A stretch of DNA of 64,000 bases from Dehalococcoidia bacterium (GTDB lineage: Bacteria; Chloroflexota; Dehalococcoidia; GIF9; AB-539-J10), in the NCBI GenBank assembly GCA_030602785.1, contig JAUVZB010000003.1, positions 46,295 through 110,294 on the forward strand, written 5' to 3'. The translations under genes were made by a program, and so were the position numbers. Shown in pieces: positions 46,779 through 57,639 of the stretch (its first letter is position 1; each line of letters begins with the position of its first letter). The notes beneath the pieces were generated by a model. That model saw only the letters and a program-made list of their open reading frames with translations, was not told the origin of the DNA and did not search any database.

Positions 46779-48233
46779 ATGACGACCAAGTGGCATCAAC
46801 GACTCGCCGGCGGCCTTCTGCTTGCGGCCTTGCTGTGCGGCACGTTCGGTTCCTCACCGAAGCAGACTGCAGCTCTCAGTCTCGACCCCTACGAGTACTA
46901 CCAGTTCGACTACCACATCGCGTTCAGCCACGATGAGGTCGAGCCAGGAGAGCCGTTCTCAATCAGCGTGGGCGCTGAGGTGCGCTGCATCAAGGACATG
47001 CCGTTCGGCGCGGACGAGGCCACGATAGTCGCCTCAGTTCTCGCTCGCAGCCAGGCATCAGGAGAGGAAATCACTCTGTTCGATGGCTACGAACTGACTG
47101 TGACCGACGTGCCGGACTGGCAGGGCGATCAGTACTCCATCGAGGAGACAGTGGAAGTCTCGTTTCCGGATGGCACGTCTCCGGGCACATATGACATCGT
47201 GGCGGAGCTCACGGACGTGAGCATTGATGGCTGGAATATCACGGGATTCATACCCGGGTCCTCCCGCTCCGTCGGCGCCGGGCCCATTGCATGCGTCGAC
47301 CCGGATGTCGCACCTCCTCCTCCGGCGCCCCTGCAGGGAACGCTGAGCATCTCGATTCTCGGCCATGATATCGAGCCCGGTATCGACGGAGCTGGCATTC
47401 TTGCTGAGGACGTGTATGCGGAGCTGATCGAGGGTCAGGTATCGCTGTACGTCGCTGCAGGCACGCGCTGCCTCGACGACTCGGGCTCTCCGCTCACGTA
47501 TATCTCGATTGTCAAAGACCCGACACCTGAGCCCTACGGCGAGGGCGTCGTGCTCTCTGCCTTCAAGCTGCGACCCGGGGGCGCGCGGTTCAGCCCGCCG
47601 CTGCAGATAGGCATCGCCTATGCCGCCGCAGACCTGCCGGATGGCTGCGATGCCGATGACCTTTCGGTCGCCTGGTACGACGGCGATGACGAAGAATGGG
47701 ACATGCTGAGCAGCGTTGCGGATACCCAGCGAATGACTGTGACCGCCGACACCCGCCATTTCAGCACGTTTGCACTCCTTGCGACGATTGACGACCGCGA
47801 GCCCGCCAGGTTCGTGGTCAGTGAGTTGACGGTGAAGCCCCGGGAGGTCCAGCCCCTCGGCAGAGTGGATGTCACCGTGTCTGTGAACAACACCGGCGGG
47901 AGCGAGGGGACTTACCATCTTGCACTTGAGATCAACGGCGAGACGGAGCACTCTCAAGACGTCGTGCTGCATCCCGGCGCCGGCCGGACGTTGCGATTCA
48001 CGGTTGCGCGTTCTCAACCGGGTGAGTACGAGGTCTCTGTCGGGGAACTCAGTCACAGCTTCTCCGTCCTGGGCAATTCCACCCCGGCACAGATACCCAT
48101 CGCCGGAGCCACAGCATCAGGGACGGACGATCCTTCCAGCGAGGGACTGCACCCGGTGTACGCGGTGCTGCTCGGGCTGGCGGCTGTGGCGTTCCTCTCC
48201 CTCGTTGTGCTGGTTCTAGCAAAGGTGCTGTAA
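46779..48233 (+). CDS. secreted membrane-anchored protein with C-terminal CARDB-like domain and TM anchor
   Basis: Signal peptide; FVVSELTVKPREVQPLGRVDVTVSVNNTGGSEGTYHLALEINGETEHSQDVVLHPGAGRTLRFTV CARDB-like; C-terminal TM VYAVLLGLAAVAFLSLVVLVLAKVL. Confidence 0.85.
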   Translation: MTTKWHQRLAGGLLLAALLCGTFGSSPKQTAALSLDPYEYYQFDYHIAFSHDEVEPGEPFSISVGAEVRCIKDMPFGADEATIVASVLARSQASGEEITLFDGYELTVTDVPDWQGDQYSIEETVEVSFPDGTSPGTYDIVAELTDVSIDGWNITGFIPGSSRSVGAGPIACVDPDVAPPPPAPLQGTLSISILGHDIEPGIDGAGILAEDVYAELIEGQVSLYVAAGTRCLDDSGSPLTYISIVKDPTPEPYGEGVVLSAFKLRPGGARFSPPLQIGIAYAAADLPDGCDADDLSVAWYDGDDEEWDMLSSVADTQRMTVTADTRHFSTFALLATIDDREPARFVVSELTVKPREVQPLGRVDVTVSVNNTGGSEGTYHLALEINGETEHSQDVVLHPGAGRTLRFTVARSQPGEYEVSVGELSHSFSVLGNSTPAQIPIAGATASGTDDPSSEGLHPVYAVLLGLAAVAFLSLVVLVLAKVL

Positions 48234-48246
48234 GAGCACCACGGTA

Positions 48247-48275
48247 TTGACAAAGCACTGTTGTGCGCCTAGACT
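48247..48275 (+). promoter_or_regulatory. sigma70 promoter of dockerin gene 48378
   Basis: TTGACA-17 nt-TAGACT; followed by ~100 nt leader with hairpins GGCAC-CCGGC-GTGCC and GCCTCC-GGGGT-GGAGGC. Confidence 0.65.
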
Positions 48276-48377
48276 AAGCATAGGCACCCGGCGTGCCGAT
48301 ATGGCAGGCACAACCGTCGTGTAGACCAGGAAGGACCGCCTCCGGGGTGGAGGCATAGAGGGGGAGGTGAATCGGCC

Positions 48378-49787
48378 ATGTCCGGAAGAACACACAGCGC
48401 TACCCTGAGGCTACTCAGCGCAATCATCGCCGTTCCTGTGCTCCTGCTCTCGCTATCGGTGGCAAGTGTGAGCGCCGCGGACCAGGAAGACTACAGCGCG
48501 GCGCAGATTCAAGACTGGCTCGTCGACAAGATCTCCGGCGCCACGGTTGAGATAACAGACGCCACGGTGTCTCCTAACAGCACCGACAATTACATGCTCG
48601 TGAACGGGCTAAGCCTGAACGTTCTTGGCGTCAGCATCGGCCTCAGCCCCATCAAGTTCACGTTTGACACTGCCCCTGGAACGACGAAGGTAGCGATTCT
48701 GGCCGAGCTGGAGCTTTTCGATATTTCGCCTAGACCAAAGATCGCGTGCAATGCAAGCGTCGGTTGCGAGGGGCCCGACGGGATGCTGGAGGTGACGGGC
48801 ATCGATAGCGGTAGCGTACAGATCGGCTCGTTCGAGCCCACGCTTTCGGAGGATGACCTCAACGCGATCGTCGACGTCGTCAACCAGATCATCGAGGCGA
48901 GCGGGCTGTCCGTTTCGCCGCCCGATGCCTACCTCACCGGAATCTGCGTGGTAGACCAGGGGGGCACCGACAAGCTCAAACTGACGTGGTCGGACGAGAG
49001 CGAGACATACCTGGAGCGGGGCGAACTGGAAGCCAAGATTGACGGCATGGCCGGGGCCCTGGAGACCAAAGCCACCGACTACCTTGGCGCTGAATCGCCG
49101 GAGTGGTGGGTGGACGTTGAGATACCCGTGACCCCGGGCGACGAGCTGCAGATCGACGCCGGGTTCGCCGCCTTCGACGTCACTACGTCATTGAGCGCCA
49201 CCGTGACGTTCGACGGTCTGACCGCCACCGTCACCGGCACGGAGTTCGCCGTTAACTCGAAGACCGTCACGTTCTCCGCCGAGGCGGAGGTCGGCTGCAG
49301 CGACTACGTGCCGTACATCGAGATGCAGTCCTTCGCACTTGGCAACGAATGCCCCGGCCTGCGTGACTACGTAGGAGAGGTCGAAGGGGACATACTCACC
49401 GCCATCGGTGACGCCGTCGACGATGTCGTGGAGAATACCGAACTCACGTGGCCCTTCTACAGCATCAACGCCATCACCGTCGAGAGCGAGACCGTCGCGC
49501 TGCATGAGGGCGAGGAGCCGTACCTCATCGTGGGTGATGTCGGCCTCGACGGAAGGGTGACTATGGTGGACGTACTATTCATCCTGCAGTACAGGGCAGC
49601 GCTAATAACGCTCAACGAAGACCAACTGAGGTGTGCGGACACCAACGCTGACGGCCGGGTGACAATGGCGGACGCATTGCACATCATGCAGTTCAGAGCG
49701 GACCCGGATGGAAGCCTGGGCATTCTCCACAAGCCTCTCTACGACCCGGTCTTCCATCATGGCATGATCGATCCCCTGACTCTCTAG
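48378..49787 (+). CDS. secreted protein with C-terminal type I-like dockerin
   Basis: Signal peptide; C-terminus GDVGLDGRVTMVDVLFILQYRAALITLNEDQLRCADTNADGRVTMADALHIMQFRADPDGSLGILHKPL: two Ca-binding dockerin repeats. Confidence 0.88.
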   Translation: MSGRTHSATLRLLSAIIAVPVLLLSLSVASVSAADQEDYSAAQIQDWLVDKISGATVEITDATVSPNSTDNYMLVNGLSLNVLGVSIGLSPIKFTFDTAPGTTKVAILAELELFDISPRPKIACNASVGCEGPDGMLEVTGIDSGSVQIGSFEPTLSEDDLNAIVDVVNQIIEASGLSVSPPDAYLTGICVVDQGGTDKLKLTWSDESETYLERGELEAKIDGMAGALETKATDYLGAESPEWWVDVEIPVTPGDELQIDAGFAAFDVTTSLSATVTFDGLTATVTGTEFAVNSKTVTFSAEAEVGCSDYVPYIEMQSFALGNECPGLRDYVGEVEGDILTAIGDAVDDVVENTELTWPFYSINAITVESETVALHEGEEPYLIVGDVGLDGRVTMVDVLFILQYRAALITLNEDQLRCADTNADGRVTMADALHIMQFRADPDGSLGILHKPLYDPVFHHGMIDPLTL

Positions 49788-49947
49788 CAAGAAGGCAAGA
49801 CGAGCAATACAGGCTGAGTCGAGTGAAGAGAATGTGCCGTCATCGAGTCATAGGACTGCGTCTGTTCGTCGCTGGTGCCGCACTCTCGTGGATTGCACCG
49901 TGCAGCCTGCAGTCAGTCTCATTGCCATGCAGCAATCGTGCTCTGGC

Positions 49948-50056
49948 CTAGGAGCCTGTCGGAACAATGTCCGGTCTAGCTTCAACATGTGGAAGAGACC
50001 GAACGAATGTAGCTTCAGGAGCTGGCCTACTTGGGATTGCTCGGACACGCTCCTAG
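49948..50056. mobile_element. 109 bp MITE-like element, copy 1
   Basis: Imperfect TIRs CTAGGAGCCTGTCGGA.../...TCGGACACGCTCCTAG; ~90% identical to 61605-61713. Confidence 0.75.
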
Positions 50057-50103
50057 CCTGTTTCACTTCCCGTCATGGTGCGTGTCACTGTGATCCCAGG
50101 ATT

Positions 50104-50370
50104 GGTGGTGGGTGATGTCAATTTCCACGGAAGGGTGACCATGACGAACGTACTATCCGTCCTGCAGTACAGGGGACAGCGCTACGAACGCTCGACAAGG
50201 ACCAACTGAGATGTGCCGATACAACCGCTGACGGCCAGGTGACTATGGCAGATGCATTGCACATCTTGCAGTTCAGAGCGGACCCGGATGGCACTACAGG
50301 CACTCTTTGCAAGCCACTGCATAACCCGCGCTTCCATGAAGGAACGATAGGCCCGCCAGTCGAACCCTGA
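50104..50370 (+). pseudogene. frameshifted dockerin domain remnant
   Basis: VVGDVNFHGRVTMTNVLSVLQYRG then frameshift, then DKDQLRCADTTADGQVTMADALHILQFRADPDGTTGTLCKPLHNPRFHEGTIGPPVEP*. Confidence 0.85.
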
Positions 50371-50517
50371 GCGAAATGGGTCATGTGGACCATTTGTCTA
50401 TTGACAGGAACACCAAGAATGCACCAAGATTGTATCCTGCCAGTGGACTGCGGGGCCCGGAATGCGTGAGGTGTATGGGCCCGCAGCAGCAATAGGTGGC
50501 ACTCAGGGAGGTTTCGC

Positions 50518-50973
50518 ATGGTGAACCGACCACGACTGCGAAGAGCGCCCGTGCGCGTAGCTGGTGCCATGATGGTTGTGGCCACAGCTATCCTCCTTCT
50601 GTTCGTGTCGTTGGCAATTGCCGACGAGCCGCCATATTCGGAGTTCCCTCCACCTCCTCCTTCACCTCTCACACCACCTGACTGGGAAGGCCCCCTTGTC
50701 CCATTCGAGGGTGACGTGAACTTGGATGGACGGGTGACGATGGCGGACGTGCTGGCAATCATGCAGCACAGAGCAGGTCTCTCGGTTCTGAGTGAAAGCA
50801 ATTTGGCGGTGGCGAACACCAATGATGACGCTAGCGTCACCATGGCAGATGCCTTGCACATCATGCAGTTCAGAGCCGATCCGGATGGAAGCTTGGGTAT
50901 TCTGAGCAAGCCACTCTGGGATTGGGCTTATGATGCGGATGTGCGCGATCCCCTTCTACAGAACGGGGGATAG
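50518..50973 (+). CDS. secreted stand-alone dockerin miniprotein
   Basis: Signal peptide, Pro-rich linker, then GDVNLDGRVTMADVLAIMQHRAGLSVLSESNLAVANTNDDASVTMADALHIMQFRADPDGSLGILSKPLWD. Confidence 0.85.
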   Translation: MVNRPRLRRAPVRVAGAMMVVATAILLLFVSLAIADEPPYSEFPPPPPSPLTPPDWEGPLVPFEGDVNLDGRVTMADVLAIMQHRAGLSVLSESNLAVANTNDDASVTMADALHIMQFRADPDGSLGILSKPLWDWAYDADVRDPLLQNGG

Positions 50974-51186
50974 CGAACCGGGTCCAACGCGCCGCCACCG
51001 AGCAGTCAAGCATGCCGCGCCTCCGTTCGACATACACTGAGGGGCGTTTGTCCGGCCTTCGCACGTGGTGTTGTCCCAATCGGCGCGCGCTTTGATTCTG
51101 AACTCAAGCGTCCCTGCTCGAGTCTTCTTGACGGTTGCAGTATCCTTCGTCTACTCTCCTCACATCGGCATGGGGTACACCGCCCG

Positions 51187-53091
51187 ATGCCGGTACTCCC
51201 TGCCAGTGGGAGCATCATCGTGAATAACACACAGCGCCTGTGGCGTGTCACCTCGCTTCTCGCAATTCTTCTGCTTGCATTGCCCCTTTCCATCCCTCCT
51301 CCCGTCATCGGCGCCGACCACGGTTCGCAGAGCTTCCCGTTCATGCAGCCCGATGAAGAAACCTTCCAGGAATGGATGCGGGCATATGAGTCCGCCCCGC
51401 GCATGGAGACTACTCACCGCGCAGCCGCTGCCCCGGGGGAGGGAACTTCCGTGGACCTTCTACCACACTTGGACTATGTGCCCTCCGAACGCAGCCAGGG
51501 CTGGTGTGGCAACTGCTGGGCCTGGGCGGACACCGGCTGTATGGAGATTGCAATGGATGTCCAGGAGGACATCTTTGAACGCCTTTCAATCCAATACATC
51601 AATTCATGCCAGACTCCTATCACAGGTAATCCCTGCTGCGACGGAGGATGGCTGGCATACGATTTCGTGCCTTTCTACGAGGCAACAGGCATGTGCGTCC
51701 CCTGGTCGAACGCCAACGCGCAATGGCAGGACGCGAGTGCCAGTTGCTCCGTGCCCTGCAGCAGCATAGCCACCGAGCCGCACTACGAGGTCCTCTCGAT
51801 AGATGACCTTACGGTGCCGACGCATTCGTCCGAGGGCGTGCCTGACGACGAGACGGCGGCCGCCAACATCAGGTCCGCCCTCGACCAGGGGCGCGCCATC
51901 TGGTTCGCCTTCTTCGTGCCGACGCGGACAGCGTGGTCCGCGTTTGAGAGCTTCTGGCAGTTCCAGAGTGAGGACACCGTCATCAACCTCGATGCCGTCT
52001 GCAGCGGGACCTCCCGCTACGTAGGCCACGCAGTTCTCTGCGTCGGCTACAACGACGAGGACCCGGAGAATCGCTACTGGGTCATGCTGAACAGCTGGGG
52101 CACCGCAAGCGGCAGGCCGAACGGCCTCTTCCGCATCAACATGGACATGGACTACAACGCGAGCTGCGGTTGGGCCTCGTCGTTCTACTGGCAGACGCTG
52201 GATGTGGTATTCAGCCCACCACCGCCCCCGGTCGTGACCACAAGCCCTGCTGGCAGCGTCGAGGCGACCACCGCACAGCTCAACGGCACGCTTGTGGACG
52301 ACGGAGGCGAGGAGTGCGACTGCAGATTTGAGTACGCTACTGAGAGCGGTGTTCCGTATGCCTTCTCGACAGCCTGGCAGAGCGGGCTCACGGAGGGTCA
52401 GTCGTTCCAGGCCGATATCGACACGCTCCTGCCGGGCACGCGCTACTGCTTTCGAGCACAGGCACGCAATTTCGGCGGCACGTCCAGCGGCGAGGAGGAA
52501 GTCTTCCTCACCAAGCCGTTGCCTCCCGAACAGTTCTCCGCATCCGCGACGGGCCAGGACGCTGTGGAACTCTCGTGGAGCCACGGCGCCGGGGCCGACA
52601 CGACCGTCGTGCGCGGCAAGAAGGAGACACCCCCTTCCGGGCCTGAGGACGGCTACGCCGTCCACGACGGCACAGGCACATCGTGCACCGACACGGAACT
52701 TGACCCGGGCAGCAAGTACTACTACAGGGCATGGTCCATAGCAGACGATGACGCACTCGATTCCATGTGGAGCGATGACTCCGCACAGGACTGCGCCCAC
52801 ACAATAGGCAACGGCGTCTGGATGGTGGGGGACGTGAATCTTGACGGCAGAGTGACCATGGCGGACGTGGCGTTCGTGATGCAGTATCGGGCTGGACTCC
52901 GCGAGTTCAACACGGACCAGATGAGGTGCGCCGATACAAACGCTGACAGCCGGGTGACTATGGCGGATGCGTTGCACATCATGCAGTTCAGAGCGGATCC
53001 GGATGGAAGCCTGGGCATTCTGCACAAGCCTCTCTATGACCCGGTTTTCCATCACGACCTCCTCGACCCACTCGTTCCCTGCGGCACATAG
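51187..53091 (+). CDS. papain-family (C1) cysteine protease with FN3-like repeats and C-terminal dockerin
   Basis: QGWCGNCWAWADTGCMEIAM (Gln/Cys), YVGHAVLCVGYND (His), VMLNSWGTASG (Asn); two FN3-like domains; GDVNLDGRVTMADVAFVMQYRAGL...NADSRVTMADALHIMQFRADPDGSLGILHKPLYDPVFHH. Confidence 0.92.
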   Translation: MPVLPASGSIIVNNTQRLWRVTSLLAILLLALPLSIPPPVIGADHGSQSFPFMQPDEETFQEWMRAYESAPRMETTHRAAAAPGEGTSVDLLPHLDYVPSERSQGWCGNCWAWADTGCMEIAMDVQEDIFERLSIQYINSCQTPITGNPCCDGGWLAYDFVPFYEATGMCVPWSNANAQWQDASASCSVPCSSIATEPHYEVLSIDDLTVPTHSSEGVPDDETAAANIRSALDQGRAIWFAFFVPTRTAWSAFESFWQFQSEDTVINLDAVCSGTSRYVGHAVLCVGYNDEDPENRYWVMLNSWGTASGRPNGLFRINMDMDYNASCGWASSFYWQTLDVVFSPPPPPVVTTSPAGSVEATTAQLNGTLVDDGGEECDCRFEYATESGVPYAFSTAWQSGLTEGQSFQADIDTLLPGTRYCFRAQARNFGGTSSGEEEVFLTKPLPPEQFSASATGQDAVELSWSHGAGADTTVVRGKKETPPSGPEDGYAVHDGTGTSCTDTELDPGSKYYYRAWSIADDDALDSMWSDDSAQDCAHTIGNGVWMVGDVNLDGRVTMADVAFVMQYRAGLREFNTDQMRCADTNADSRVTMADALHIMQFRADPDGSLGILHKPLYDPVFHHDLLDPLVPCGT

Positions 53092-53361
53092 GCCAGCCAT
53101 CGGTGGATGCAGGAACATCCGGAATCTTACTCCGGGGCGATTGACACACGGCGCTCAAGGCTGTGTCGTCCATGTCTTGCTTGTGTCCGTGGCCTCGGGA
53201 TGCGTTCCCTGTACTGGGCGCGCGGAGACCTCCGCAGTTCATCCCTGCCCTGCGCCGGAACAGGGGCGACCGGATAGCCTGCAAATGCAACGGGGCCATT
53301 GACGGCCTCAAGCTGCGTCTATGCGACAAAGAGGCGACTAAGTAGTCCCTGCCGGGTTTGA

Positions 53362-53560
53362 TTGATGGGCAAGAAGGAGAGGCAGTCTCAGTCTGTCGCC
53401 GTCTCTCCCTGCGCCTGCCAGCAGGTCATCTTCAAGGGCTCCCGTGCTGTGCCCGGCACCTACCAGGTAGCCATCGACGGCATGACCGGTCAGTTCCCTG
53501 TCCTCGCATCCGGCATCGTCCTCATCGCAGTTCTCATCATATCTTCAGCAAGGAATGGCA
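53362..53560 (+). pseudogene. fragment of CARDB-TM anchor module
   Basis: [52 protein letters not shown] parallels [44 protein letters not shown] of the 53725 gene. Confidence 0.7.
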
Positions 53561-53644
53561 GCCGGCTTCCATTCGGAATAAGGGGTGGCCCGAGTCGGGT
53601 CGCCCATTTTCTGCAGAATTTCGCCCAAATTCCACCGCAAGATG

Positions 53645-53673
53645 TTGACTTGTTCCAAATATGCCTATAGCAT
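53645..53673 (+). promoter_or_regulatory. candidate promoter of the cohesin scaffold gene, followed by leader hairpin
   Basis: TTGACT-17 nt-TAGCAT; then perfect hairpin AACCTAG-CTGT-CTAGGTT (53676-53693). Confidence 0.55.
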
Positions 53674-53724
53674 AGAACCTAGCTGTCTAGGTTTGGCTGC
53701 ATTTCTGTTGGTAAGGAGTGAGTG

Positions 53725-55923
53725 ATGAGCATGAAATGGGTACGCGCCCTCTCGCGGGCATTCTCAGCAACTATGGTGACCAGTCTGCTGGTTCTCACGA
53801 TGGCGATTCCCGCGGTATCCGCCGCTGACGAGGTGATCTCCGTTACAGACGTAACACTGCAGGACGGCACCCAGACGGTACAAGTCAGACTTCAGAATAT
53901 CGCCAGCCTCGGATCCATTGATTTCAAGCTCGAGTACGACACCAGCAAAGTCAAAGCCGTGGCTGTTCAGCGGGGTGCCCTCCCCATCGGTGTAGAGACT
54001 TGGGTAATCGATGATGCGGCAGGCACGGTAACTGGTATCTGGGCCTTACTTGGTGGGGTGACGGGTATCGTTGATTCCGTGTTCTTCACAGTCACCTTCG
54101 CACCGGTCACCGAATGCGCCCCGACTTCGTTCAGTCACGATAGCACTTTCTTCGACTATTCAGACGCCTCCGGTAACCCACTTGATGCGCCTACTTTCGT
54201 CATGGGTGAGTATGAAGTCCTCCCTCCCACCGTGGTATGGATTGATGATGACTTCACCGGCCCCACCGTCGATGGCGGCCATACTTGGGGCTACAACGCC
54301 TTCGACGATATTCAGGAGGGCATCGATGCCGTCTCCGCGAGCACCGTCCACGTGGCGGCGGGCTCCTACTCCGGGTTCGTCATCGCCGGCAGGTCCGGCC
54401 TTCAGGTCCTCGGCGAGGCCGGCGCGGTGGTCGACACCGCCCCCTTTGCCATCGGGCCGGGCGGCCAGTCCCTCTGCGGCATTGACGCGTCAGACAACAT
54501 CCTCGTACAGAACCTTGAGTTCGATGGCGCCGTCCTCGGTACTGGCGGCAGTTTCCGGGGCGCAGGCATATACTGCTACAACAGCAGTCGCATCACGCTG
54601 GATGGCGTGAACGTCCACGACTGCTACAACCCCTCTGACTCCCACCCCAGCTATGCCATCTACATTTCCAGCACCACGGTCGCTATCACCAATCCGAACC
54701 TCCATAACAACGAGGTCGGCGTCTACGTCGATAACGACACTGTCTCCATCACCGGCGGCAGCATCGAGGGCCTCGGCGCCTCCATTCCTTCGACCGGTAT
54801 CTGGGCCGACTTTGACGCCATTGTCAGCGTCTCCGGCACGGAGGTGTTCGACTGCTCCGACACCGGTGGTTCCGTAGCGCCCGGAGCCGGTTTCTATGAA
54901 ACCGTCGGCGCAGGCATATACGTTGCGGACTCCGCAACGGTGACCTGCACGGGCTGCTGCAAGATACACGACAACGACGGGGGCATCGTCGTGGAGAACT
55001 ACGGCCTGCTCACCGCAAACGGCAACAACATCGAACGCAACGATTGGGGCGTCGTCTGGGAGTGGTACTGGACAGGCGAGGAACCCGGAACTTCTGTGCC
55101 GCCCGACCTCGACTGCGAGGAGAACTGGTGGGGATATGCGGATGGGCCGGGGCCGGGAGGGACAGGCAATCCCGTCACCGACGGCGTTGACTTCACTCCC
55201 TGGCTTGACGGACCATGTCCGGGTGGCAACCCGGTGGGTATGAACGCCAAGCTCATAGGCGTGCCCCGCAGCGGCGAGCCCGGTCTCACCGTAGAGTTCA
55301 CCGACCTCTCCACCCCCGTACAAGGCTGCGACATCATCTCCCGGTTGTGGGACTTCGGCGATGGCGGCACCAGCACCGAGCAGAACCCTTCCCATACTTA
55401 CGACAAGGAAGGCATCTATACCGTCACGCTGACTGTGCTCGACGACTGCGGCTTCTCCGACTCCGTCACCATGAGAGCCTACATCACGGTGCGGACTGCC
55501 TACAGTGGGGACACGGCGGAGGATGCCAAGATGTCCGTCTGCTACCTCAACATCGACCCGATACATGTCCTGCAAAACCAGGAGGTCGTCATCTCCGCCA
55601 ATGTCTGCAACCAGGGCGGTGAGCGCGGCACTAAGACCGCTACCCTTATGGTCAACGGCAATGCAGAGCAGAGCCAGACCGTCAGCGTCTCGCCCGGCGC
55701 CTGCCAGCAGGTCACCTTCAGGATCTCCCGGGCCGTCCCCGGCACCTACCAAGTCGGCGTTGACGGCATGATAGGCCAGTTCAGCGTCCTCGCTCCAAGG
55801 ACCGTGACACAGAACGTGCCTACCGAGCAGGACACAGGCATCGGCACAGGAGGCATCATCGCCCTTGTTGCCGTGGCCATCGCTCTCATTGTCGGACTTG
55901 TGGTGATATTCAAGAAGGAATAG
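53725..55923 (+). CDS. membrane-anchored scaffold: cohesin + right-handed beta-helix + PKD + CARDB + C-terminal TM
   Basis: Cohesin-like N-terminus ([36 protein letters not shown]...[12 protein letters not shown]); parallel beta-helix repeats; PKD ([49 protein letters not shown]); [31 protein letters not shown]. Confidence 0.88.
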
Positions 55924-56019
55924 CTCTTTCATAGTCCACGCAACCTCAGAGGGGTGGCCCAGAGCCACCCCTCTTCCTTGTCTCCCTCCCGCACGAGGCG
56001 GGGTGGTTTCGAATGTAGT

Positions 56020-56172
56020 GGCACGTTGCACGTGCCGGGTGGGCGTGGGGTGGGTCCGGATGTAGGGGCCTAGCATGCCTGGCCCATCGCCCCTTCATCA
56101 CACAACGCCGCAAAGGCCAACACCTCCCTGAATGACACACTACCCGGCGGGAGAGGCATGCCTCTCCCCTAC
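56020..56172. repeat. palindromic repeat cluster with linker
   Basis: GGCACGTTGCACGTGCC (56020), GGGCC...GGCCC (56065), linker, GGGAGAGGCATGCCTCTCCCCTAC (56149). Confidence 0.85.
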
Positions 56173-56340
56173 AGGTACCGGCCTGCATAGAACCGCCTCG
56201 CGGCGGATGAAGGTTTCGGCAGCAGCCCACCATGTGGAATTCACGGCGCGGCCCTCCGTGTCCGCCCGTGGCAATCGGGGTGGTTGGTGGTTTCGAATGT
56301 AGTTGCACGTGCCTGGTGGACGCGGGGCGGTCCGAATGTA

Positions 56341-56504
56341 GGGGCGGACCTCAGTGTCCGCCCGCGGGGGTCAGTGCCAGGGGGTGGTTCCGATGTAGAT
56401 ACCGTTTTGCCTGACCCGTCGCCCTGTCGTCGGACAACGCCGCAAAGGCCGACACAACCGTGAACGGCACACAACCCGACGGGAGAGGCATGCCTCTCCC
56501 CTAC
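56341..56504. repeat. palindromic repeat cluster with linker
   Basis: GGGGCGGACCTCAGTGTCCGCCCGC (56341), TGTAGATACCGTTTTGCCTGAC module (56394), linker, GGGAGAGGCATGCCTCTCCCCTAC (56481). Confidence 0.85.
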
Positions 56505-56545
56505 AGATCCGCCCGTGGTGGCGGAGTGGGGTGGTTCCGAATGTA

Positions 56546-56836
56546 GGGGCACGTTGCACGTGCCCGGTGGATGCGGGGCGGTGGTTCCGGATGTAGATAC
56601 CGTCTTGCCTGTCCCGTCGCTCTGTTGCCGCACAGCGCCGCAAACGCCAACACAACCCTGAATGACACACTACCCGGGGGGCGGACACAGAGGTCCGCCC
56701 CTACGGGAAATCGAGCACTTCCACCCTGCCAACCATCGCCCACCCGACGGGCGGGCGCAGAGGCCCGCCCCTTGGGAAACAGGGCTTTCCCCCCTCTCGT
56801 CCATCCACCCCACGGGCACGTGCAACGTGCCCCTAC
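56546..56836. repeat. palindromic repeat cluster with linker
   Basis: GGGGCACGTTGCACGTGCCCG (56546), TGTAGATACCGTCTTGCCTGTC (56592), linker, GGGCGGACACAGAGGTCCGCCCCTAC (56679), GGGCGGGCGCAGAGGCCCGCCCCTT (56749), GGGCACGTGCAACGTGCCCCTAC (56814). Confidence 0.85.
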
Positions 56837-56965
56837 ATCACGAACCACACCCCACATCCACCCACAACACAGCTTGCCGTCGCAACACCCCGTACTCATT
56901 TCTTGCGTTTTGAGGCTCCTGCCGCTATAGTTATGCGCGTCAACGCACACGCGTGAGGAGCAGCT

Positions 56966-57359: not shown

Positions 57360-57446
57360 GCCGAAGTGGCGGAATGGCAGACGCGCTACGTTCAGGGCGT
57401 AGTGCCCCTTGCGGGCATGAGGGTTCAAGTCCCTCCTTCGGCACCA
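57360..57446 (+). tRNA. tRNA-Leu (CAG)
   Basis: Class II tRNA with long variable arm; GCCGAAG/CTTCGGC acceptor; loop TTCAGGG; encoded CCA. Confidence 0.96.
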
Positions 57447-57456
57447 GTTTGCTCAT

Positions 57457-57530
57457 GCGCCTGTGGCTCAGCTGGATAGAGCGCAGCCCTGCGGAGGCTG
57501 AGGTCGTGGGTTCGAATCCCACCAGGCGTA
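57457..57530 (+). tRNA. tRNA-Arg (GCG)
   Basis: GCGCCTG/CAGGCGT acceptor; anticodon loop CTGCGGA; T loop TTCGAAT; no encoded CCA. Confidence 0.95.
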
Positions 57531-57563
57531 CTTGATTTCTCTCCGCGCACCAGGCGTCACGGC

Positions 57564-57639
57564 GGGCGGTTAGCTCAGTGGTTAGAGCGCCTGTCTTACA
57601 CACAGGAGGTCACTGGTTCAAGTCCAGTACTGCCCACCA
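57564..57639 (+). tRNA. tRNA-Val (TAC)
   Basis: GGGCGGT/ACTGCCC acceptor; anticodon loop CTTACAC; encoded CCA. Confidence 0.95.

Follow-up and report, generated by a model that had tools for sequence, protein, structure and literature searches.

Gene content of the cluster

The 64,000-nucleotide stretch analyzed here (hereafter the window) is part of contig C118 of a 2.57 Mb draft genome (G000), and it carries a cluster of five genes on the same strand, which we designate A (46779), B (48378), C (50518), P (51187) and S (53722), downstream of a YdjM-like gene. S combines a cohesin with a membrane anchor, and B, C and P are exported proteins that bear dockerins. An original prediction made from the letters of the window alone had described a non-cellulosomal cohesin-dockerin surface system in a Chloroflexota-like organism, and a check of the open reading frames (ORFs) recovered all five genes at the positions it gave. 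A collection search with gene A identified the metagenome-assembled genome (MAG) CSMAG_1233 (G049), of the class Dehalococcoidia, as the closest named relative of G000, which agrees with the proposed Chloroflexota host. Contamination of the assembly is unlikely because the GGR and UppS or YdjM neighbors are syntenic in G049 and in a further relative, G048.

Gene S (53722..55923, forward strand, as are all features below) encodes a signal peptide, a cohesin (residues 41-160), a beta-helix, a PKD domain, a CARDB domain and a C-terminal transmembrane helix (residues 712-730) followed by KKE. Its start codon is GTG at 53722; an in-frame ATG at 53725 with a good ribosome-binding site (AAGGAG) may be the start instead. 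The cohesin module (53818..54237) matched PF00963 in a whole-protein Pfam scan with an E-value of 5.2e-8 and 33.6 bits against a cut-off of 24.1. It also scored 37.9 bits with a leave-out hidden Markov model (HMM) built from the cohesins of other loci, from which the window and G049 sequences were excluded; shuffled S sequences served as controls, and none was among the matches. The AlphaFold2 (AF2) model of the module has a predicted local distance difference test score (pLDDT) of 83 and a predicted template modeling (pTM) score of 0.75. In a Foldseek comparison with PDB structures, cohesins accounted for all of the 50 matches shown, the best being the non-cellulosomal Archaeoglobus cohesin 2xdh (template modeling score 0.73, E 1e-7), and a profile search of PDB sequences likewise placed the Archaeoglobus cohesin closest. 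When the isolated cohesin was searched against the PDB as a single sequence, no match was obtained, and profile and fold methods were required for its recognition. The jelly-roll fold and the Pfam match bear out the cohesin-like N-terminal domain that had been predicted for this protein, and the helix found by the transmembrane scan bears out its membrane anchoring. Just before this helix, a 'GIGTxGII'-like stretch is conserved in the S-type anchor family (window 55760-55923; homologues L117 and L125), and the conserved DTGIGTxGII might be an unrecognised signal for a sorting enzyme.

Gene B (48378..49787) encodes a signal peptide, an internally repeated alpha/beta domain and a dockerin (residues 386-437), and the dockerin module, including its tail, occupies 49521..49787. 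Gene C (50518..50973) encodes a signal peptide, a proline-rich linker, a dockerin (residues 65-116) with its tail, and nothing else. Gene P (51187..53091), the start codon of which is uncertain, encodes a papain-family (C1) protease, fn3-like domains and a dockerin (residues 548-599) with its tail. The dockerins of B, C and P matched PF00404 (Dockerin_1) at 32.8, 29.1 and 35.4 bits against a cut-off of 22.9 (E 8e-8, 1.1e-6 and 1.2e-8), and these scores rule out chance EF-hand matches. The Pfam search that the original prediction had suggested as a check thus returned both module types above the curated cut-offs. Its statement that three secreted proteins end in dockerins stands as far as the modules are concerned, but the dockerins are not strictly terminal, because a conserved tail of approximately 30 residues follows each of them. 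Each dockerin has two F-hand repeats, and the calcium ligands of the loops are mostly present by sequence. The transmembrane scan placed C-terminal helices in S and A, whereas the products of B, C and P each have a signal peptide but lack a transmembrane anchor.

The protease domain of P matched Peptidase_C1 (E 1.4e-18), has cathepsin L relatives in the PDB, and retains the catalytic set Q104, C110, H281 and N302. To judge by these residues, the product of P is a papain family C1 protease with an intact triad and a predicted activity, as had been proposed for one of the dockerin proteins. The AF2 model of B is poor (pLDDT 59), with weak matches to the BPI/CETP/LBP fold (E 0.01-0.04, probability <=0.30); as a lead only, its alpha/beta domain is possibly TULIP-like and perhaps lipid-binding.

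The predicted decayed dockerin was recovered at 50106..50371 as a direct repeat (D1) with 76% DNA identity to the dockerin of B and with a 72% amino acid identity, its frame being broken by two extra bases. A remnant of a second S-type anchor, a CARDB fragment at 53382..53507, shows 79% DNA identity to 55668-55793 and 62% amino acid identity. Such remnants, together with a broken second papain gene in G049 and with substitutions in the dockerin loops (Gly for Asn in loop 1 of B, and Asn for Asp at the start of loop 2 of C), could be expected if the cohesin and dockerin modules had lost most of their function and were drifting within a hypervariable cluster of surface proteins. However, all five ORFs and the catalytic set of the papain are intact, the loops of the three dockerins are mostly complete and their tail is conserved, and the cohesin folds confidently, and we regard drift as very improbable.

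Gene A (46779..48233) begins directly after the stop codon of the YdjM-like gene and encodes a secreted N-terminal domain, a CARDB domain (Pfam E 8e-5) and a C-terminal transmembrane helix (residues 462-480); no cohesin was found in its product by the Pfam scan. It is the constant member of the locus and is 95% identical to its G049 orthologue. Beyond the other end of the cluster, GC-rich intergenic direct and inverted repeats occupy 55995-56870 and contain a perfect palindrome of 20 nt twice (at 56149 and 56481); a tRNA-Leu/Arg/Val group (57360-57639) lies shortly downstream of them.

Absence of cellulosomal components

Domain scans of the five cluster proteins revealed no glycoside hydrolase (GH), carbohydrate-binding module (CBM) or S-layer homology (SLH) domain, in agreement with the original prediction, and no GH or CBM was found in the other G000 dockerin proteins scanned. 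No sortase signal was matched in the cluster proteins, and S carries its C-terminal helix and KKE instead. A multi-cohesin scaffoldin was not found among the six Pfam cohesins of G000, each of which lies in a separate ORF. The cluster is a non-cellulosomal cohesin-dockerin system by definition, in that both modules occur in one secretome without cellulosomal parts. The proposed surface system, with a transmembrane-anchored cohesin, dockerin clients that include a protease, and no carbohydrate-active enzyme (CAZyme), is supported. The failed cellulosome test counts against the cluster being a cellulosome, not against a cellulosome-type docking chemistry. In G042, a glycoside hydrolase family 113 domain and, at the C-terminus, a dockerin-like match occur in one protein (contig C79, L130:3375-7127), and CAZyme-dockerins probably occur in the same family as G000.

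Exchange of modules between orthologous clusters

The orthologous clusters that carry other C-terminal modules are the most informative evidence on function. All of these genomes are drafts, and absences are weak where contigs break. The window and G049, a sister species, are 93.5% identical at the DNA level through 48532, approximately 155 bp into B, where the similarity ends. Over S, similarity is present at 53582-53822, is gone over the cohesin and returns at 54211-54427; protein identity is 29% in the cohesin, compared with 83% and 74% in its flanks. Gene C has its orthologue in G049 (L115:100-630), with 32% identity in the dockerin versus 65% in the linker; the signal peptide (43%) and the tail (42%) are likewise divergent. 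The papain orthologue of G049 is 79% identical over the catalytic part, and its C-terminus is BACON-CARDB-"GWNMVSVP", as opposed to fn3-dockerin in the window. By these comparisons, the cohesin of S and the dockerin of C diverge together, and the coupling modules change while their carriers stay, both in S and at the C-terminus of the papain.

Gene B of G049 runs to a contig end within a GWN module. The terminal part of a GWN protein lies on contig C221 together with the intact papain orthologue, and contig C104 holds C with its dockerin, the broken second papain and an S with a divergent cohesin-like N-terminus. This second papain gene (L115:567-2043) is frameshifted and lacks a dockerin, and the intact one lies on the adjoining C221. 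The GWNMVSVP module forms the C-terminus of both B and P in G048, and neither a dockerin match nor an S cohesin was found in that genome. This module is present at the C-terminus of diverse secreted proteins in the genus (G048 and G049; L176-L190), eight times in G048 and five times in G049; it has no Pfam match and is absent from G000. Because G048 and G049 both carry GWN on B and P, parsimony within the genus suggests that the dockerins on B and P of the window are the derived state, and the cohesin-dockerin couple looks like a recently installed surface-holding pair.

A MAG of another genus, AUK195 (G016), has the gene order A, B, S, P. At the place where the window has a dockerin, both its B and its P carry a module, 67% identical between the two, that consists of CarboxypepD_reg followed by 'LDYFLLCMNLYLEGW...'. 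The last 32 residues of this module occur exactly twice in G016 and in 0/7 relatives. A general sorting signal was ruled out, since this end is found only twice in the genome, both times in the operon, and a degenerate dockerin was ruled out by hhalign, which found no relation with a profile of only two sequences. The N-terminal domain of the G016 S differs from that of the window, and the leave-out HMM gave no support for its being a cohesin (1.5 bits). In G021, the homologue of B is fused in one chain to the CARDB-transmembrane part of A, and in G017 the two parts adjoin in separate frames. Because B of G021 is covalently fused to a transmembrane anchor, membrane attachment of B would be a naturally used state. 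Judged from its orthologues, the cluster is an older operon, in which other genomes carry other modules (GWN, the operon-private CpdR tail of G016, or a direct CARDB-transmembrane fusion). Among more distant papain relatives in the order, no further swaps were found; these mostly run past the end of the stretch examined or have no dockerin within it. Class-wide, gene A loci showed no B, cohesin or dockerin matches nearby.

Cohesins and dockerins elsewhere in the genome and order

The cluster is not the only cohesin-dockerin locus of G000. Five cohesins lie outside it, and four further dockerin-like matches were found outside the window at E <= 0.1: a cohesin-dockerin protein on contig C117, two matches on C21 and a very weak one on C82. 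Order-wide, cohesins were found in 14 and dockerins in 18 of 84 genomes, and a protein with a cohesin and then a dockerin, accompanied by a cohesin-bearing neighbor, is a recurring theme at other loci.

On C117 (L110:119-6380), a 1703-residue beta-helix protein ends in a cohesin and a dockerin and is followed by a 380-residue protein with a cohesin, Big_5 and a C-terminal hydrophobic segment. The same pair occurs in G049 (C171), and it resembles the AF2375/AF2376 pair of Archaeoglobus. In principle, the C117 proteins could link up head to tail on an anchor. On C21 (L109:17851-19998), one protein comprises a C39-like peptidase, fn3, a cohesin that scored 34.4 bits with the leave-out HMM, and a dockerin followed by a window-type tail; other genes of this contig encode an alpha-2-macroglobulin and a histidine kinase that has about ten PAS domains. 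A third protein, on C3 (L111:2462-3631), has a CdvA-like coiled coil, a hydrophobic stretch resembling a transmembrane helix and a C-terminal cohesin, and similar proteins are present in G049 (C35) and G048 (C32).

These loci bear on two other explanations. The local dockerins might serve another cohesin of G000 (C21, C117, C3 or C78), and the S cohesin other dockerins, in a distributed network. The six cohesins and seven dockerin-like matches of the genome, the tail-type dockerin on C21 and the retention of the C3 protein in both relatives are compatible with this arrangement. However, the cohesin and dockerins of the cluster are adjacent on the same strand and diverge together relative to G049, and the C3-type cohesin persists in G048, which has no S cohesin or dockerin match, so it is not tracking these dockerins. 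We consider such a network unlikely. The second explanation is that the dockerins are calcium-binding, stability or oligomerisation modules that need no cohesin. Secreted proteins of the order often carry EF-hand-like repeats, and some of its genomes have a dockerin match without a cohesin match (e.g., G004 and G057). In contrast, the same cluster carries a cohesin here, each dockerin has two repeats that are near-symmetric at the recognition helix of classic dockerins, and G048 lacks the dockerins and the S cohesin alike; we find this explanation improbable, more so than the network.

A proposed surface tether model

We consider it likely that S acts as a surface tether, the cohesin of which holds the dockerin-tagged B, C and P at the cell. 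The module identities, the gene order and the replacement of modules between orthologues are observed; we infer the binding, its stoichiometry and calcium dependence, surface retention and proteolytic scavenging. S would be exported and kept in the membrane by its C-terminal helix, presenting one cohesin on a beta-helix/PKD/CARDB stalk, and B, C and P, exported without an anchor of their own, would be caught by it. Each would dock through its F-hand dockerin, in a calcium-dependent manner if they behave as their family does, with one client per S. Because each S has one cohesin, the "mini-assembly" or machine that had been predicted is retained as a cohesin-dockerin surface system but not as a gathering scaffold: the layout fits a 1:1 membrane tether. 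The proteolytic or adhesive function that had been predicted along with it is putative. Such a tether would keep at the cell a papain-type protease, a duplicated and perhaps lipid-binding alpha/beta protein and a small dockerin-only protein, and the last, barely more than a dockerin on a linker, might be a cap or a competitor. The pair would have taken over the retention performed in relatives by other C-terminal modules, and the attachment of B through its dockerin would be a non-covalent, exchangeable counterpart of the covalent fusion in G021. The presence of the cohesin and dockerins in one same-strand cluster supports the tether.

Several points weigh against it. Any of the five other G000 cohesins might be the true partner of the window dockerins, and the C21 protein has a tail-type dockerin beside its own cohesin. 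The cohesin of the G049 S is weak (16.4 bits with the leave-out HMM) although C of that genome retains its dockerin. Moreover, the G049 cluster is distributed across three contigs, with the C221-C104 link given by a 141-bp identical overlap and the C56-C221 link presumed. That the GWN and CpdR tails are retention modules is likewise an inference.

A broader proposal, which we put forward as a possibility with rather less than even chances, is that the operon of A, B, P and S swaps its coupling module as a unit: each lineage would have one plug on its secreted members (dockerin, GWN or CpdR tail), and the N-terminal socket of S would change too (a cohesin here, another domain in G016). If so, several connector standards would be interchangeable, cohesin-dockerin among them, and in G016 the CpdR tail would pair as a plug with the N-terminal domain of S as its socket, a combination so far undescribed; these two are candidate connectors for protein engineering.

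Cohesins and dockerins outside cellulosomes have been on record for two decades, and their role has usually been unclear because nothing shows what the modules replaced. Near-identical orthologues with and without dockerins provide a natural before-and-after comparison, in which the idea of the dockerin as a swappable surface tether is directly testable. The present case suggests surface retention of a protease in this lineage of uncultured Dehalococcoidia.

Comparison with known systems

The cluster shares with the cellulosome the same module pair, but it has no multi-cohesin scaffoldin, CAZyme, CBM, SLH domain or recognised sortase anchor. The complexes of the X82 cohesin proteins of Clostridium perfringens are glycosidases. 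These single-cohesin proteins (structure 2jh2; PMC12997984) are likewise non-cellulosomal, with one cohesin per protein, and 2jh2 is among the fold matches of the S cohesin; however, their cohesins belong to secreted complexes, whereas that of the window sits on a transmembrane-anchored, non-enzymatic protein. Dockerin-bearing peptidases outside cellulose degradation have been described in the Cloacimonadota 'Ca. Stygibacter' (PMC8542988) and in the mucinolysomes of Limousia (PMC12997984), but those systems have multi-cohesin scaffoldins and many glycoside hydrolases, of which the window cluster has none. Protease double-dockerins (reviewed in PMC12484212) are a further precedent.

The nearest functional precedent is RflaF_05439 of Ruminococcus flavefaciens, a papain-like (NlpC/P60) X-dockerin protein that is bound by the cell-anchored ScaE cohesin (PMC3573020). 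There, too, one anchoring cohesin retains a protein of cysteine-peptidase fold at the cell, but within a large cellulosome, with a sortase-anchored ScaE, an NlpC/P60 domain and an X-dockerin, whereas the window peptidase is of family C1. The closest systems by sequence profile and fold are the single cohesins outside cellulose degradation of Archaeoglobus fulgidus (2xdh) and of anaerobic methanotrophic (ANME) archaea, for which surface attachment was proposed as well (PMC9012536). In contrast to those pairs, the window cohesin is carried by a beta-helix/PKD/CARDB protein with a transmembrane anchor, it would serve a papain protease, an alpha/beta protein of no assigned class and a dockerin-only protein as clients, and the orthologues of the operon use other modules. 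A literature search, with most subscription journals outside its reach, found no publication on a system of this kind in Dehalococcoidia. Non-cellulosomal cohesin-dockerin pairs and dockerin-proteases are already known; what is new is the transmembrane-anchored single-cohesin layout without CAZymes, together with the recent exchange of modules.

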